The notes under the pieces: generated by a model
Told to the model about the DNA's origin: nothing
Database searches by the model: none
What the model saw: the letters and a program-made list of their open reading frames with translations, nothing else
Program-made: the position numbers and the translations under genes
Shown here: in pieces, positions 6,553 to 54,700 of the stretch
Layout: each line of letters opens with the position of its first letter
Numbering within the stretch: the stretch's first letter is position 1
NCBI GenBank assembly: GCA_002189035.1
Contig: CM007991.1
Location: 62,001 to 126,000 of the forward strand
Reading direction: 5' to 3'
Source: Utricularia gibba
Taxonomy: Eukaryota; Streptophyta; Magnoliopsida; Lamiales; Lentibulariaceae
DNA length: 64,000 bases

Positions 6553-8927
6553 TTATCTGGCATGCTGTGCCACCTTCATCTCTAGCTTGGCCTTGTCTGC
6601 TCCCACAACTTGATCTACTTCGTCGCCATTTTTGATGAAGAAGAAAGTTGGAACACTGCTGATGTTTCTCTCAGCAGCCGCATCATTTGCCTCATCGATA
6701 TCTACCTTTAGGAATACAACTTTAGGAAACTTCTTTGCTAGGCTCGTATATTCGGGGGACATGTATCGGCATGGACCACACCATTTTGCTGTGAAATAGA
6801 CTACTGCAAGTCTTGATGCTTTTGATGCAGCATGGAGCTTAGCTTTTAGCTCTCTGGCGGAGTGAATGCTGATCACCTCCCCTGGACAACGAACGAATTA
6901 GAAGTTGTTGCACAGATAAAAAGTTTTATGAAGCATCTTGAAAAAAAAAAAATTAATGACACACTTTTGGTACACCCGGGATACAAACTGAGCAATCAAT
7001 AAATCAACATACAGGGTAGGGTATACAAAAAAGATACCATCAGTGAAAGCAGAAGCAGCCTCAGCTTTCTGAAAGATGCAAGGCGCGGAAAAGGTGAGTA
7101 TTGAAAGATAAGAGATTATCATTTTGTTAAGGACAATACCTCAGCGTTTGACTTCGCTTGCTGCTTCTCCTTTTCAATCCTAATCCTTTCCTGCTCCTTG
7201 TGATTTCTCACGCGTTCATATTTTCGGCGGTGCTCTTCAAGTCTTTTCGCATTTGGTTCAACCTGAAAATGTCCCATCAAGAATACCTCCATATTTTTAG
7301 CACATCTACAGAAGAAGAACATAGAAAGAAAATGAAATCAAGTGAGAGAAAAAGAAGACCTTTCTTAGAACCAAACCAATCTCCTCATCAAAATCTAGTT
7401 TTGATGCCAAATGCAAATCCGAAGCCGCAGCTTCCCACAAGCCCAACAATGCTCTTGCCATTCCTCGAGCTTTATATCCCTTAGCAGAGTCAGGGTTTAG
7501 CTGTACAACAAAACGTGTATTTCATCATGACTCTGTAGTGACATGCCAATGACAAATTGTGAACACCCTAACTGGATGAGTTGAAACATTTGGAGTCCTT
7601 TGAGGCTATGACGAGCAAAATTTATTGGGTTTGTGAATAAGGTGTGCATTAAGCGCATGTCTTGAATTGGTTAAGCCGATTAAGTCATATAGCACACTCA
7701 AGGCTTACTCAAACAAGGTCAAATGATAGAGATTTCTCAAAGCAAACTAAGAATAAGGAAGGAGCACATAAACAACCTTCAGAGCAAAATCTGCATCACG
7801 GATCCCGGCATTGGGTTTTTTGAGCTTGACGAAGACACTTGCTGCATATGTCCAGTGACAAAATAAATCCAGGAGAGAGACATTGAAGCAGGAATTTCCT
7901 CCAGCCTTCATACGTGTTGGCTAACTAGTGTAATAAAGCTAATTACCTCGATTTGCATATAATATTGCTGACTTGGGGTTCAGCAAAATTGCCTCTGTTA
8001 GGCAATTTATGGCATCATCAAACTTGCCTGGAATAAAAAAAAAGTATCTGACTGCAAGTACATTTTTTCCGAAACAAAGAATATATATAGATGTGGGTAC
8101 CATCCACAATCATGTCCAAAGCTTTTGCTTTTAATAATTGAGCAGGTTCTCGTTTTTCCTCCGACTCTTCAGCAGAAAGGTCTCCCATCTTCAGAGAAAA
8201 ATTAAAAAAACAAAAACCTTATGGATTTACAACATCAAATTCGCACGCATTCTCCTGTTCAACATATTCAAAGCAAAAAACGCATTAGGTGAAAATATGC
8301 TTTGTAAAAAGGAGATTAAGACCCTTTGAGGAACATCACTGTCAGGTTCCACAACATCCGAATCATCCAACTCAACATCGGACTCAACAATATCCTCAAT
8401 TGTCTCATCATCCTTCGAAAGATTAGGGGCTTCGCCGGCAGATGGCTTTGTTTCTCGATCACCCTGTATCGGAATCTTGCTTATAAGAAAGAATTCAACT
8501 CTGCATCATGATCTACCAAACAAATACTACTGAAAGCAACCACACCTTATTACATCTTAAAGTCTAAAATAATCCAAAACGACCATTAAACTTCTAAAAA
8601 AGATAATGTCAGAACTTGAGACCAAATCGCACCAAATACTCAAGTATCAGAACAAGATCGATCATATGGAAAACGCAGAAACTTACAGAGGCACCCGACT
8701 CCGGAATCCGAGCACCCAAGCTGAAAAAAAAAATGTTGCAGCATGATAAGTGAGTAATCTTGCTGAAATAACCCCAAGCCCGAAATTGCACGTACAACGC
8801 AATCCGGGAAAATAAACCTTCGGAGAAAATCCCGGAAAAAGGAAAGACTACTGGTGTGTAGGATTGAGGGGTTGCGCTCGCAGTACTCCACGAAATTCTT
8901 CAGCTCGTCAACCTTTTGCTGCTCCAT
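6553..8927 (-). CDS. TDX: TPR repeat-containing thioredoxin TDX (HIP-like)
   Basis: Ten exons read on the minus strand (8927-8818, 8720-8687, 8463-8323, 8188-8101, 8027-7947, 7841-7777, 7500-7360, 7262-7140, 7068-7038, 6881-6553) join to 380 residues, the usual TDX length. The order is: an N-terminal HIP-type dimerisation segment ([18 protein letters not shown]), an acidic linker, three TPRs (from [17 protein letters not shown] to [15 protein letters not shown]), a charged helix ([20 protein letters not shown]) and a C-terminal thioredoxin domain. The redox site KWCGPC and the cis-Pro loop SVPTFF are intact. TDX acts as a disulfide reductase and Hsp70/Ssb2-binding cochaperone that becomes a holdase under heat. 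The start at 8927 gives the conserved HIP N-terminus. Its upstream region faces the decayed kinase gene, so the two probably shared a promoter. Confidence 0.93.
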
Positions 8928-12203: not shown

Positions 12204-13908
12204 ATGTCTCCGGTAGGACTCCCGCCCGGCTTCCGCTTCCATCCTACCGATGAAGAGCTGGTGAACTACTATCTCAAGAGGAAGATCCATGGCCTTGAGA
12301 TTGAGCTCGACATTATTCCTGAAGTTGATCTATACAAATGTGAGCCTTGGGAGCTCGTTGGTGAGTACAAATTTTAAATCATAGAATGTTGATCTTGATC
12401 AAGGTTTTCTTTTTCATATCTGATCATAAAGGTGACCCCAAGTGTCTTGTTGTAGAGAAATCGTTCTTGCCTAGCAAGGATCCGGAGTGGTACTTTTTCG
12501 GGCCAAGGGACCGGAAGTACCCGAACGGATTCAGGACAAACCGAGCGACCCGAGCAGGATACTGGAAATCCACAGGGAAGGATAGGAAAGTGACGAGCCA
12601 GAGGAGGGCGATCGGCATGAAAAAAACTCTTGTTTACTACAGAGGAAGAGCGCCCCAGGGAATAAGAACTGACTGGGTCATGCATGAGTATCGTCTCGAT
12701 GACAAGGGATCGGATGAAGCTTCCGGGATCCAGGTAGCCGCCAGTGTGCTTAAACTAATCAAACAAGTAGCATCTTCATATTAACCAAATATCTCTTTTT
12801 TTGTCCATTCTTTGTTCAAGTAAGAAGATTATTACAAGTATGGATTACTCCTCGTGCTGTTCCTTTTTTTGTCGATATCCAGCCTGTTCTTCGCTAGGGT
12901 TTTTACTATACAAATAGGTCTTCGGTTTTACGAAGAGTAAGAACCCTACTATCTGTGTTTTCTTGTGACTGAAACAACTTCATAGATGCCACCATTTGGC
13001 TCTAAAAGTCCCATTTTCAGGAAACCCTGTTTTTTCTTTTTTCGAATGGTGGATGAAAAGAAAAAGACAACATGGGTTTTTCTCTAAATTTTCACACTCT
13101 TTTTTTCTCACTTGCTTCAAAGTATTGGTATAAAAGAGGAGGATCACTGAGCTTTTAACATGTGCCCTCCTGCCCTAATTCATTTTCATTTTGTGATCCT
13201 TTCTCGCTTGGAAATAACTGGAGAATTTATTACAACAAGATGCGACGAATTTGCCTGCCATGAAAACCCTGAAAGAGGGAAGCATGATTCTTTTCTTGTA
13301 GAACCATTTCTCAAATATGTCTTGAGTGACAAAGCAGGGTTTCACTTTGCCTTTGAAAGAACCAGACAAAAAGCATGATCCTTCCACATGACTGAATCAT
13401 CTGATCTGATCTAGTTCAACCATCAATTTCTCCAGTCTTCCTTCCGCTTTCCATGCTTATCGTTTTCTTTTTCGATGTGATAGTCTTTAGATAAGCGTTG
13501 GGCTGCTTTTTTCCTACCAGATTGCAACGCAGTACGTATCAGGGGAAAAAAAAAAGAGAAGGCATTGGTCTTGTTTTTCGTGTCCAAAGAGTTTTAACAG
13601 AATGCTGGTGTTTGCTTCTGCAGGAGTCGTACGCATTATGCCGTGTTTTAAAGAAGAACTGGCTAAGCACGGAGGTAGAAGGTCAAGGTCAGTCCAGCAA
13701 CCTGCTGTTGCTTGATCTCACGCCGACGGAGAGCGAGACGCTGTCGCCGGAACTTCCCATGGCATCATCATCATCAAACATTGGGAACATGGAGGAAGAA
13801 GACGGAAATGGCAAGGAGGATGATGAGGATGAGTCATGGATGCAGTTCATCAGGGATGGTGTGTGTTGTGGTGATGAGCTCTCGCAGATGGTCTTCACCA
13901 ACAACTAA
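12204..13908 (+). CDS. NAC-domain transcription factor
   Basis: Three exons (12204-12360, 12456-12733, 13624-13908) give 239 residues. The NAC domain fills residues 1-160: subdomain [54 protein letters not shown] with [36 protein letters not shown] with VMHEYRL, and [12 protein letters not shown]. The C-terminus is Ser-rich then strongly acidic (about residues 195-225), a likely activation region ending in [11 protein letters not shown] proteins bind CACG-containing promoter sites as dimers in the nucleus. I chose the acceptor at 12455 because it yields [13 protein letters not shown], the family form; an upstream AG would add eight residues. The protein is short for the family. The group (SHR5-, NAC074/NAC86-like or other) cannot be fixed by eye. 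Confidence 0.9.
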
Positions 13909-15808: not shown

Positions 15809-18800
15809 ATGGTGAGGAAGAGGAGGAGTGCTTTGCCTGCAAGTGGTGGATCTGAAGCGCAGGAAGGCAGTGGCGACCGTGCCGATGAACAGCCTCGACA
15901 AATGCAACAGCCGACGCTGCCTCCATCGCAAGGTGGGAGAGGATCGGCTCCTCAGCCTGGAGCATATACTGGGGCTGCTGGTTTAACCGGAAGAGGATTT
16001 GCGCCTCCTGGGCATCAACAAGGGCTGGGTGCTGTGCGTCAGCACGAGGTCCCTAGTGTAGCGGCGGTTTCCGGTGCGCCGGCAAGGACACCGGATCCGG
16101 AGTTGCACCGGTCGACGCATGAAAGGCCTATAGTCGCATCTTCTCATCAACAAGGAGGATCTGTAGAAACTGGGACTTCCGATCAGTTGCACCAACTGTC
16201 TCTGCAACCTCCGTCACAGCCTGCATCAAGCATGTCCATGAGATTTCCATCCAGACCAGGGCTGGGAACTAAAGGTACCAAATGCATGGTGAAGGCTAAC
16301 CATTTCTTCGTTGAGATACCTGATAAAGATCTTCATCACTATGATGTAAGTTTTTTATATTGAGTCGTGCTTCTGTTGTTATTATGATCCATTTGTTGAT
16401 GTACCGTTGGAATGTTGGGAGATATGAATGATACGATTTGCAGGTGACCATAACACCTGAGGTTAAACGTGCAGCCTCTCGGCTAGTTATTGGTGAATTG
16501 GTGAACCGGTACAAGGAATCTAGCTTGGGGAATAGGCTCCCGGTTTATGATGGAAGGAAGAGTCTGTACACTGCTGGGCCCTTGCCCTTTGGGTCAAAGG
16601 AATTTGAGGTTACTTTAGCTGATGAAGATGATGGCCGTAGCAACACCATGAGGTTCGCTTCCATGGACTACTCTTATGTTGAACTATGATTTTTCTTTTC
16701 TCTCATGATACTCTTTGAGTTGAATTCTGTGAGCAGGAGGCAGAGGAAATTCAAGGTTGTTATAAAGTTTGCTGCTCGAGCTGATTTGCACCATTTGAAA
16801 ATGTTCTTGTGTGGAAGACAACCTGATGCACCTCAAGAGGCGTTACAAGTCTTAGACATTGTTTTACGTGAACTTCCCACTTCAAAGCATGTCTCTTTCA
16901 CGCCTTTTCATTACGTTTTCTTCTAGTCTCCACCTTTCTCCTTAACTCTCTTTTTCTCTAGGTATTGCCCTGTTGGTCGTTCCTTCTATTCTCCAAACTT
17001 GGGTAGGAAACTGCCCCTGGGTGGTGGACTTGAAAGCTGGCGTGGCTTTTATCAAAGCATTCGGCCAACTCAGATGGGATTGTCACTGAACATTGGTAAT
17101 CAGTTGGCTTGGTGAATCGGATTAATGAATTGAGCCAAGCCCAAGAGCCTTATTGGTTGTGTTTATGATCATTGTTGATCGTTTTCTTTTTTTCAATAGA
17201 CATGTCATCCTCTGCTTTCATGGAGGCAATCCAAGTAATCGACTTTGTATGCCAACTCTTGAATAAAGATGTTTCGGCAGGGCCGCTTTCTCGTGATGAC
17301 TATAAGGAGGTTTGTTCTGCTGTTTTCTGCAAAAAGAAAAAAAAAAAGAAACTGATTGTTTTCTATAGTTTTCTGATTATTGTCCCTTTGCATCTTTTTC
17401 ATCAGATAAAGAGAGCTCTGAGAAATGTACGAATTGAGGTTACCCACAGAGGGAGCCTGCGGCGGAGGTACCGCATCTTTGGTTTGTCATCACAACCAAC
17501 TAGAGATCTAAGGTTGGCGTTAGAATTATTTCGCAGCAATTCTGTTAGGAGTGTGGATCCAAGTTTAGTACATTTGTGGATATGAGTGTTGTTACATCTT
17601 TGGGATTATCTGGTGATGTTTTTTTGTACGGTGGCTTGTAAAATTTGTCCCTTTCTCTGATTATAAAATTTGTCTCTGGCTTCTCATGCATTCTGTTGTT
17701 CAGGTTCCCTATTGATGAAGGCGGGACAATGAAATCTGTAGTGGAGTACTTTAGTGAGACGTATGGGTTTTCCATACAGCACACTCAATTGCCATGTCTC
17801 CTCGCCGGCAATCCTCAAAGGCCTAGTTTTTTACCGATGGAGGTTTGCAAGTTACTTTGAGATAAGCGTGTTTTTTATGTATGCTATTGCATTATTTTTC
17901 GTTTTTTTCATGCTTAGGTATGTAAGATAGTTGAAGGTCAAAAGTATTCCGCGAGACTAAATCAAAAGCAAGTTACCGCACTGCTGAAGGCCACTTGCCA
18001 ACGCCCTCAGGATAGGGAGAATGACATAATACGGGTTGACATAACTTTTACCTTATTTGACTGCATCTCGTCTTAGAAGCATTATATTTTTCCTGATCTT
18101 CTTAACAGACTTTCAGGCGTAATAATTATGCAAATGATCGTTTTGCTATGGAATTTGGAATAAGAATTAGAGACGAAATGTCCGAGGTGGAAGCTCGTGT
18201 TTTGCCTCCTCCTATGGTAAGCATAACCTCTATTCTTGTTTTTCTAGTTCCAAATCCCATTTTCTTTGTTCTAATTGCGTTACAGCTGAAATACCATGAT
18301 TCTGGCCTAGAAAAGCAATGTCTCCCTGTAGTGGGACAATGGAGTATGGATAATAAGGTATATTTCCAATTTCGTTTGCTTTTAATGCCGTTTAGTCTTG
18401 AATACACGTTCTTCTCAATTTGATTAAAACTTGGGCTGTTGTTCCATCATATGGCGGTTAATTGTCATGTAGAGGATGGTGAATGGTGGGCAGGTGAACA
18501 GTTGGGCCTGTATTAACTTTGCTAGAAACATACCAGCCAATGTTGCACGTAAATTTTGCAGTGAGCTTGCTGCTGTGTGTGCGGCTTCTGGAATGGTTTG
18601 GCAAAACCCTTCTTGTTTTTTTTTTTCCTCAAGTTGGTTTCTTAACTAGATATAATATGGGGTATTTTTTTCAGGTTTTTAATCCCAATCCCATTGTGCC
18701 ACTTGTTACTGCTCGTCCTGATTGTCTAGAAAATGTTTTGAAGTCAACGTCTCATGATGCAATGCAGAAGTTACCACCTGAGAAAAAAGAGCTTGATTTA

Positions 18801-20549
18801 CTGATTGTTTTGCTGGCAGAGAGGGGCTCGTTGTATGGTGAGGTTAATTTCTGTAACTTAAAGCATTGAAGCTCTTAGATGAATGGGTTCATAACTTGTC
18901 CAGGTGATCTGAAGCGGATTTGTGAAACTGAGCTTGGTATCGTGTCACAATGTTGCCTTCAGAAGCATGTATTTGAGATGAAGAATCGGTACTTGGCCAA
19001 TTTGGCTTTGAAGATTAATGTTAAGGTCGGAGGAAGGAATACTGTGCTCTGTGATGCAATTTCAAGACGAATACCTCTTGTCACTGACGTTCCTACTATT
19101 ATTTTTGGTGCTGACGTCACACACCCGAGTCCTGGGAGGATTCCAGCCCATCCATTGCAGCAGTATGTTGTATTTTAAATTCTTTTATCTACATTCTTTT
19201 TTAAGTTTGTTTATACACCTGTTTTTTCTCAAGGTTGTTGCATCTCAAGATTGGCCAGAAGTTTCAAAGTATACTGGTTTAGTATCTGCTCAAACTCATC
19301 GTCAGGAGCTTATCCACGATTTCTATAGAACCTATCAGGATCCTAAGAAGGGGACTTGCCATGGTGGCATGGTAAGGTGAGATGAAATACATGTGATTTT
19401 GATACTCATTTATGTTTCCTTGCTTCCCTTGCTTTTACGGATTTCCTCACCTGATTTGTTTGTTATTTTACAGGGAGCTGCTTGTATCATTCTTCAAAAC
19501 TACCGGGCAAAAACCAAAACGGATTATATTTTATAGGTCAGTTGTCAAAAAGAGGCTGGATTAGAATGCTTTTTAAAGTACATTCGATTGATACCACGTA
19601 TCTGTTTGCCTTGCATCTGTACATTCTCTCTATTTGCAGGGATGGTGTTAGTGAAGGGCAGTTCTCTCAAGTACTGCTCCATGAAGTCGATGCTATACGC
19701 AAGGTAATGTTCAGTTTGAATTTTTCCCGTATTGATGTGGTGAAAAGATGCTAGTTTTATGACACGGTTAATCAACTGCTATCACGTGTGTGTTGTCAGG
19801 CGTGTGCTTCTTTAGAACCTAACTATCAACCGCCTATTACATTTGTTGTGGTTCAAAAGCGGCACCATACTCGCTTGTTTGCTAGCAACCATGGTGACCG
19901 TAGGACTGTTGATCGAAGTGGTAACATCTTACCAGGCACGGTTGTTGATTCAAGGATCTGCCATCCAACCGAGTTTGATTTTTATCTATGTAGCCATTCT
20001 GGCATACAGGTAAAGGTTCTTGACCCGCGTATGCATTTTATGTTGATGGCTGATACGTTTGATTTAATAACAGGGCACTAGTCGCCCTGCCCATTACCAT
20101 GTATTGTGGGATGAAAACAATTTCAGTGCTGATGGCCTTCAACTACTGACTTATAGTCTATGTTACACGTAAGTTCTTGATTGATTGTGCTTGTTTCTTA
20201 TACTTTTGTTTTTCATGTGCCCCACATTGTGTTTGCAGCTACGCGAGGTGCACACGGTCGGTTTCCATCGGTACGTGTAATCATGATCATTCAGTCTTCA
20301 AGCTTTGCATGCTTTTAGGGCGTTGTCTTTAGTTAAGAGTTCTGTTCCCCTCAAACAGTGCCTCCTGCATACTATGCTCATCTAGCTGCATTTCGTGCTC
20401 GCTACTACATGGATCCACAGTCATCAGACAGTGGTTCCATATCCGGCGGACGTGGTGCCAGAAGTTCTAGGGGCCCGGATTTCGATGCTGGTGTGAAGCC
20501 GCTCCCTCAGGTCCGTGAAAATGTGAAGAGGGTTATGTTCTACTGTTGA
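15809..20549 (+). CDS. AGO1: ARGONAUTE1-type protein, with one-base frameshift in PIWI
   Basis: Twenty coding exons from 15809 ([14 protein letters not shown]) to 20549 (RVMFYC, the invariant AGO end). Order: a Gly/Gln-rich N-terminal region, the N domain ([35 protein letters not shown]), PAZ (near [17 protein letters not shown] and [19 protein letters not shown]), MID ([20 protein letters not shown]) and PIWI. Catalytic residues are visible: Asp in FGADVTHP, Asp in [11 protein letters not shown] and His in [10 protein letters not shown]. The sequence fits the AGO1/5/10 clade and most closely AGO1, which loads miRNAs and slices targets. Exon 13 (18904-19162) is one base short: after HPSPG the frame leaves the conserved EDSSPSIAA and would stop in the next intron, while all later exons read normally. 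Intron 3 has a GC donor (16887). As written the gene would give a truncated protein; a consensus error is a strong alternative. Confidence 0.88.
16095..16115 (+). promoter_or_regulatory. AGO1: Degenerate miR168-complementary site
   Basis: AGO1 mRNAs carry a miR168 site over the codons for PELHQ. Here the same place reads PELHRST, and the DNA keeps the central ttgcacc core. From the miR168 sequence as I recall it, about seven of 21 positions differ from full complementarity, two of them G:U wobbles, including a mismatch in the miRNA 5' region. Position and peptide context support homology; function as a target is doubtful. Confidence 0.5.
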
Positions 20550-51704: not shown

Positions 51705-54700
51705 TCACAAATGATCCTCGTCCTCATCCTCGTCTCCACTGCTTGATTCCACGGCATCGCTGTCGTCTTCCTCCACCCCCTGCGCCAGAATCTCCAAAAT
51801 GCCACCACCATCGAACCCAATGTCATTCATGAGGAAGTCCCCATCTTCTTCTTCGTCATCGAAGTCACTTGCGCCGCCGTCTTCATCGGCATCACTATCA
51901 CCATTCTCGTCGATGTCGACGTCCAGGACCGAATCGTCGTCACCCTCATCATCCTCTTCCTCTTCTTCACTTTCCGCATCGTCTGGGTCAGAGTCGTCAT
52001 CTGTCGGCTTTCTCCTTCCGATTTCGTACACCCGGACGAAAGAACACATGCCATCCGGCTCGTCATCCACAGTGATTAAACCAACAAAGGAATCTGTTGG
52101 TTCTGCAGCTAAATCAAGCACGCATCTGTCGGCTGAAATTGTTGCAATATCTGAGTAGTTAACTGCATCCACTGTACGAAAAGCAGAGTACAGAGGATGC
52201 TTCTGCCGACGGCTTCTGAATGCAGAGTGCATATCCTCAACCCTCCTCTGGATCGCGTAGATGACATCCCCAGTGGAATTGAATGTTATTTCGGTGTTAG
52301 ACAACGATGGCACGGTCTGCAGAAGCCCGAACTTGCGCAAATCCCACACATCTTTGTCTATAATGACCTGCAGATGTTTCCTCATTCAGAGTAGGAAAAG
52401 ACAAGTCGCCAACATGGCAAGCTGATAAGAATGAAACAAGGAGGCGTACCTGATTCCTGGTTGGGTGAAATCCCCCACCACCATAACTATCAAACTTGTC
52501 GAAACGATACACAGGCTTTGGCTGCCTATAATCCCACAACACTCCATTCCACAGAACACTAGAAGAGTCTTGGCTAAAGTGAATGAGAGAATGCGGACAG
52601 TAGGTGCTGGATGTATCCTTCAGTGTCACATCCAGCTGACAAGTATGAACATCATACAGAAGTATCTCGCCACTGTGTATATCATGCCGTAATGCTGCAA
52701 ACATTGAACCAGAATTATTGAATCTTGCAGCTTTAATACCGTCAAATGTATGCTTGGGTCCTCCAGAGACTGAGAGTGCATCCCATAATCGAACTTCAGC
52801 TTCACTTGACGAGAGCAGCAGTTCAACTTCTCCAGAAAAATGGGACTGGAGAAGAGTTACAGGGGATTGATGGCTGGTGTAACTGTCCAGCAGATTGTTG
52901 GTATTGGATTCAAATACCTTCAGCTCACCACTTTCTCCAGCAACAGCAATTTTAGAAGAATCCCCGAGAAAAGTTATGCAAGTCAAGAAAGTAGCACCAT
53001 CATCTCGGGACGTTCTCCACGGCCTGAATCTACTGTATACAAAGTGGCGATCCTTTCGCTGTCCATGTAGACAACCATACATACTTCTAAACTCACGCAT
53101 ACTGAGCCGAGATGTGACATTTGATGGAGCATCGAAACCTCGCCTGGATTCAGGACAAACATGTGGGTGCAGAAGTGAAAATGGGGGTAAAGTTGTGATT
53201 GGAGAAGGGCACTGCCGGTGTTGATGCTTCAAACACTGAACAACAATAGATTCCAAAGTTTGCCTTTCTGAGCCACAGTGTTGTTGATCGTATGTAGATG
53301 CCTGCTGAGAAGTGTTGCTGACTAGCTGACTTCCATCAAGATTAGAAACCAAAGTATTTGACAAAGGTCGATTTACTTGATCTTTCACCAACGGTGATGG
53401 AGCTAGGGGTTTCGCATCCATCTGCAAGCTGCTTTTACACACAGAATTTGGCGATATAGATTTCATCAAATGCTCACCAGTTGCTGGCTTTTTTGCTGAA
53501 GGAAGAGGCCCACCATCTCTCATTTCAGCCTTCCGCTTCTTTGGCAATGACATTGGTGTCTTAAACTGAACACCCTCATCTACGCCAGGTTTTATTGGAC
53601 TGACTGAAACAGGCCATTTAGCATCAGTCGCCACAGGAGCATCCTGAGAAATGGCATTTCTGGAAAATTTAGATAGTACGGGACTGTCTTCTAATCTCAG
53701 TTGGAGCTTTAGATGACCAGAAACAGCTGATGCAGGCAAGTGTTTTTTCCTCGAAGAAACTAGGAGCGAATCACAACTCCCTTTAGGTTTAGGCTTATCC
53801 ACCAGGAACCCTGAAGCAGCCCGACCAGATGGCAATGGAACTTGTAGAGCTGAATTTTCAGGCTTAGAGCATGGATGCACTGATGATGATTGGGAAGGCA
53901 GAGGTGTCAGATTGGATTCTTTGAGAAGCACTGCTGCACTATGCGGACAACCAACTGCTTGCAAGTGCTCATGAATAAGGAGCAGAAGTTCCCTGGAAAA
54001 AAAAAAAATGAATGCTCATACTGAGTACAATGCAAAGTAAATAAAAAAAAAATTCAAAATCTTACTTTGAATCGTAAGTGATAGGTGTGGCAGCAGTTAT
54101 GGCATCTCTTTCAATACGTCTTAGTGTTGGGGTAGCAGCATCATTTGCTACCAAAGTGCTTGCACGACCAGAATTAGTAATGACCTTCAAATCATCAAAA
54201 TTTTTAACAACTTACATATATTAGTATCTAAATAAATGGAAATGATCAGCGCCCAGATCCCGAGTCTAAGAAAGATTGCACAGAGCAATCAACACTTTTG
54301 CATAGAAGAAAGAGTGACAAGCAATAATAATCCGCGTTCTAACTAAAACATTACCAGCCATGAAAAAAAAATCAGTAAAATGCTAAATCAAACAGATTAC
54401 AAACGAATGTTAAAAGATTCTTTCAGGTGCGAGCTTACCCCAATCAGCTCAACAGCAACTTGGGCAAGCTCAGATTGCCACCTGTTTTGCTCACCACTAG
54501 ACGTCTGGTTCCCAGAATCTCGAATCAGTTCTGAAAGCTTCTCCCGAACCTGTATGACAAGGTTTATCATGTGGTATGTGCGCAAGTTTAACTCGATGAA
54601 TGTAAAGAAACCACTACCCACCTGAAGAATATCAAGCATGCGTGCAATGGTATCATCCCTTGCTAGACCAAGAAGCACACGGCAAGTCAAAGCTCGAAGA

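Follow-up and report, generated by a model that had tools for sequence, protein, structure and literature searches.

A single-base frame break in an AGO1-type gene of Utricularia gibba most likely lies in the assembly, not in the plant

An AGO1-type Argonaute gene of Utricularia gibba lacks a single base just after its first catalytic Asp, and this frame break most likely belongs to the assembly and not to the plant. The gene lies in a stretch of 64,000 nucleotides (C3:62001-126000, here the window), which we analysed together with the searched genome of 100.09 Mb in 516 contigs. Judging from the assembled sequence, the deletion in the G run is very probably a residual PacBio-type consensus error, and the gene would then be an intact third AGO1 paralog encoding a full-length slicer Argonaute. 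This explanation is strongly favoured because identical lesions are common in the assembly and because constraint is undiminished downstream of the break.

Table 1. Features of the AGO1-type gene and of the region around its frame break (window coordinates)
Feature	Position	Strand	Basis
AGO1-type Argonaute gene, 20 coding exons	15809..20549	+	spliced alignment; PDB matches (7sva and AGO1 MID); ArgoN
Intron 3 donor of GC type, GCATGT	16887..16892	+	spliced alignment
Exon 13, with first catalytic Asp (GADVTHP) and frame change	18904..19162	+	sequence, alignment, paralog comparison
G run of three G; the C1 and C321 AGO1 paralogs have one base more	19134..19136	+	paralog comparison
Normal donor of intron 13, GTATGT, hexamer identical in the C1 and C321 paralogs	19163..19168	+	sequence, alignment
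Weak alternative donor GTTGTA, 4 nt past the normal donor, use hypothetical	19167..19172	+	spliced alignment
Exons 14-20, open and under purifying selection, with catalytic Glu (HRQE), second Asp (YRDG) and His (PAHYH)	19234..20546	+	alignment and codon model
First stop (TAG) of the shifted frame with normal splice sites, exon 14	19280..19282	+	read from sequence

Spliced protein-to-genome alignment traced the gene from start to stop codon, with a product that begins MVRKRR and ends RVMFYC. The initial annotation had described all exons other than exon 13 as open and in phase up to RVMFYC, and the 20-exon alignment agrees: the 19 other coding exons contain neither a frame change nor an in-frame stop. 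The expected Argonaute order of ArgoN, PAZ, MID and PIWI sequence was found, with ArgoN detected in the N-terminal part using Pfam and the PIWI exons matched in the Piwi search, and the product up to the lesion was colinear with plant AGO10 (PDB 7sva) over 599 residues (874 bits). Although family and overall architecture are thus common to the window gene and AGO10, protein identity in the conserved parts was higher to the AGO1 gene on C1 (72% upstream and 85% downstream of the lesion) than to the AGO10 gene on C414 (63% and 79%), and the AGO10-type catalytic-site motif THPENGEESS does not occur in the window gene. In addition, the MID domain scored 210 bits to AGO1 versus 129 bits to AGO5, and a NAC gene (at about 12205-13908 in the window) adjoins the gene, as NAC copies do near the AGO1 genes on C1 and C321. 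By these comparisons, which rest on identity, MID scores and the NAC neighbour, the gene is of AGO1 type, with AGO10 and AGO5 more distant. It resembles the plant AGO1 clade (Arabidopsis AGO1 and the U. gibba paralogs) in its largely common exon-intron layout, its terminal motifs, its NAC neighbour and the four catalytic positions Asp-Glu-Asp-His, all of which are encoded but, with normal splice sites in the assembly, not in one frame.

The initial annotation had proposed looking for a second AGO1 gene elsewhere, and the genome holds two. The Piwi search gave eight gene loci, namely the window, C1, C321, C414, C142, two on C2 and one on C451. Their sequences place C1 and C321 with AGO1 and C414 with AGO10; the loci at C2:5.0 Mb and on C451 look like AGO7, and C142 and the other C2 locus fit AGO4 by elimination. 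This count agrees with the published U. gibba set of three AGO1, one AGO10, two AGO4 and two AGO7 genes, with no AGO5 (PMC8333044). The C1 paralog is intact, whereas the C321 paralog (C321:1654000-1660500) carries its own single-base deletion, which follows RSFYSP in exon 4. At the usual acceptor of exon 4, C321 has CAA, and an alternative CAG 6 nt upstream adds two codons, so that the acceptor appears, from the sequence, to have shifted by that distance. The window copy is farther from both paralogs than they are from each other, and differs from them in the GC donor of intron 3 and, in the assembly, in having one base fewer in exon 13. As to layout, two exons of the paralogs match exon 17 of the window gene, and our models of the paralogs split their last exon in two. 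A GC donor also occurs in the C414 AGO10 paralog, at a different intron.

Since NAC copies adjoin all three AGO1 genes, these genes are probably products of whole-genome duplication. The NAC copy closest to that of the window is a fourth one, on C416 (85-89% identity), beside which we found a relic of AGO exon 10 (KYHDSGHQADRLPGHRQWNMSNKQ, 24 residues; C416:148400-158399, at 7588-7659) that scored 30.8 bits versus 22.7 for the best of 60 shuffles. We read this sequence block as a fourth AGO1 duplicate that has truly been lost. With only 24 residues kept, real AGO1 loss is here almost erased, unlike in the window gene.

At the lesion itself, the window reads CCTGGGA where both AGO1 paralogs read CCTGGGGA. 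This bears out the earlier claims that the gene is broken by one base just after the first catalytic Asp, and that one extra G in the run near 19134-19137 would restore the frame: the window has three G and the paralogs one more. The exon 13 frame is lost at this point, and the conserved EDSSPSIAA lies in the frame reached via a -1 shift. With normal splice sites, the shifted frame would yield a product of ~758 residues that lacks the catalytic Glu, the second Asp and the His. Six exons follow the stop-bearing exon 14, and a premature stop in such a position is expected to trigger nonsense-mediated decay. Ribosomal frameshifting was ruled out by inspection, as the site (CCT GGG AGG) offers no X-XXY-YYZ slippery heptamer in frame.

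We estimated how often such breaks occur in the assembly from conserved families with long exons, counting abutting matches in differing frames. Among GRAS genes, 48.3 kb of coding sequence held 16 frame changes; 13 were -1, and one of those scored as +1 turned out to consist of two -1 steps. HSP70 genes, cytosolic ones among them, showed 8 in 31.1 kb, all -1, a count that falls to about 6 distinct events once a probable intron and a duplicate locus are set aside. Three further breaks in HSP90 were likewise all -1 (from match coordinates, with frames assigned by hand). When HSP70 loci were aligned to an intact copy from this genome, single-base losses and no in-frame stop were seen at five of them (two being apparent duplicates), and one further copy was clean. 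Read base by base, the GRAS lesions were nearly all -1, many of them in G or C runs, and a C-rich GGPP site was the common break point of several genes, DELLA-like ones included. A clade-specific, biologically conserved GRAS break near profile position 138 was considered and rejected, since this C-rich codon run is broken separately in several genes. An apparent frame break in a DCAF1-like gene of the window (52297-52385) is more plausibly an intron. One and the same frame break occurs at two HSP70 loci that appear to be duplicates (C241:16500-18600 and C304:2235400-2237600), and C241, a contig of 31 kb, may be redundant.

Overall, conserved genes showed an apparent change of frame by a single base about once in every 4 kb, almost always -1; the rate is approximate, since introns or real decay may account for a few of the events. 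At this rate, the calculated probability of at least one such error in a 3.0-kb coding sequence is ~0.5. The same type of lesion is frequent across unrelated, essential genes (GRAS/DELLA, HSP70, HSP90 and the C321 AGO1), and the exon 13 break thus needs no biological cause. It is far less likely that heat-shock and DELLA genes have broadly turned into real pseudogenes, each with one or a few single-base losses but almost no nonsense mutations, than that consensus errors remain. The U. gibba long-read assembly was produced from PacBio data using HGAP (PMC5793159). As far as the assembled sequence can tell, its lesions are like the residual indel errors of long-read-only assemblies, being losses of one base, often within G/C runs, dispersed among conserved genes that are otherwise intact.

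Selection was examined with a codon model of four AGO1/AGO10 genes in which the window branch was split into the parts upstream and downstream of the lesion. Omega on this branch was 0.19 upstream and 0.07 downstream, and omega = 1 was rejected on both sides (2dlnL of 8.8 and 11.7, respectively), although synonymous change is near saturation on the AGO branches and the test therefore speaks to an old pseudogene and not to a very recent one. On this sequence-level constraint an old pseudogene is ruled out. Past the exon 13 break we found neither relaxed constraint (downstream omega of 0.07) nor further lesions in the spliced alignment. The upstream value is higher than the internal-branch omega of 0.07 and, together with the GC donor of intron 3, might be a sign of weakened constraint on the window gene.

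The initial annotation had left the choice between a very young pseudogene and a consensus error. The lesion base rate and the downstream constraint strongly favour the latter: the missing base would be a one-base loss left uncorrected in a G run when the long-read (PacBio-type) consensus was made, and the plant DNA would carry the longer run. The third AGO1 paralog would have been kept after whole-genome duplication together with its adjoining NAC gene, and a full-length AGO1 protein would be made and would cleave its targets. A very young real pseudogene, in which the plant itself has the one-base deletion, nonsense-mediated decay removes the transcript and its function falls to the other AGO1 copies, seems unlikely. 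It would accord with the lesion as assembled, with the two other AGO1 genes in the genome and with the C416 block, where AGO1 has gone save for a short relic and which indicates that this lineage can lose copies; yet it must contend with like lesions across the conserved genes of the assembly, with the absence of a second lesion and with downstream constraint that has not relaxed.

Two readings in which a real deletion leaves a working protein fare considerably worse. Rescue by splicing at the donor 4 nt downstream would give a full-length protein, and an alignment path free of any frame change does exist, the donor at 19167 being the aligner's only way to restore the frame. However, this path takes a weak GTTGTA in place of the GTATGT used by both AGO1 paralogs at intron 13, and it replaces the near-invariant EDSSPSIAA beside the first catalytic Asp with an altered segment of ten residues, all of which makes it very improbable. 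Least credible, to the point of being nearly negligible, is a functional truncated Argonaute of ~758 residues, comprising N, PAZ, MID and a PIWI stub, that binds small RNA without cleaving. The upstream open frame is indeed conserved, but decay is expected from the exon 14 stop with six exons beyond it, and exons 14-20, needless for such a product, are constrained no less than the rest of the gene (omega 0.07). The earlier statement that the slicer triad is lost therefore holds for the shifted frame as assembled, while a slicer-less AGO as its biological meaning is disfavoured by the base rate and the downstream constraint.

These results caution against taking single-base frame breaks in this assembly as gene loss unless raw reads are consulted, as apparent losses of AGO1, DELLA or HSP70 copies would otherwise pass as biology. 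We consider it improbable that a one-base deletion next to the catalytic centre has just knocked out one of the three AGO1 copies of this minimal-genome carnivorous plant. If the lesion were nonetheless real, it would record, in the act, how a very small plant genome loses an AGO1 copy that whole-genome duplication had produced.
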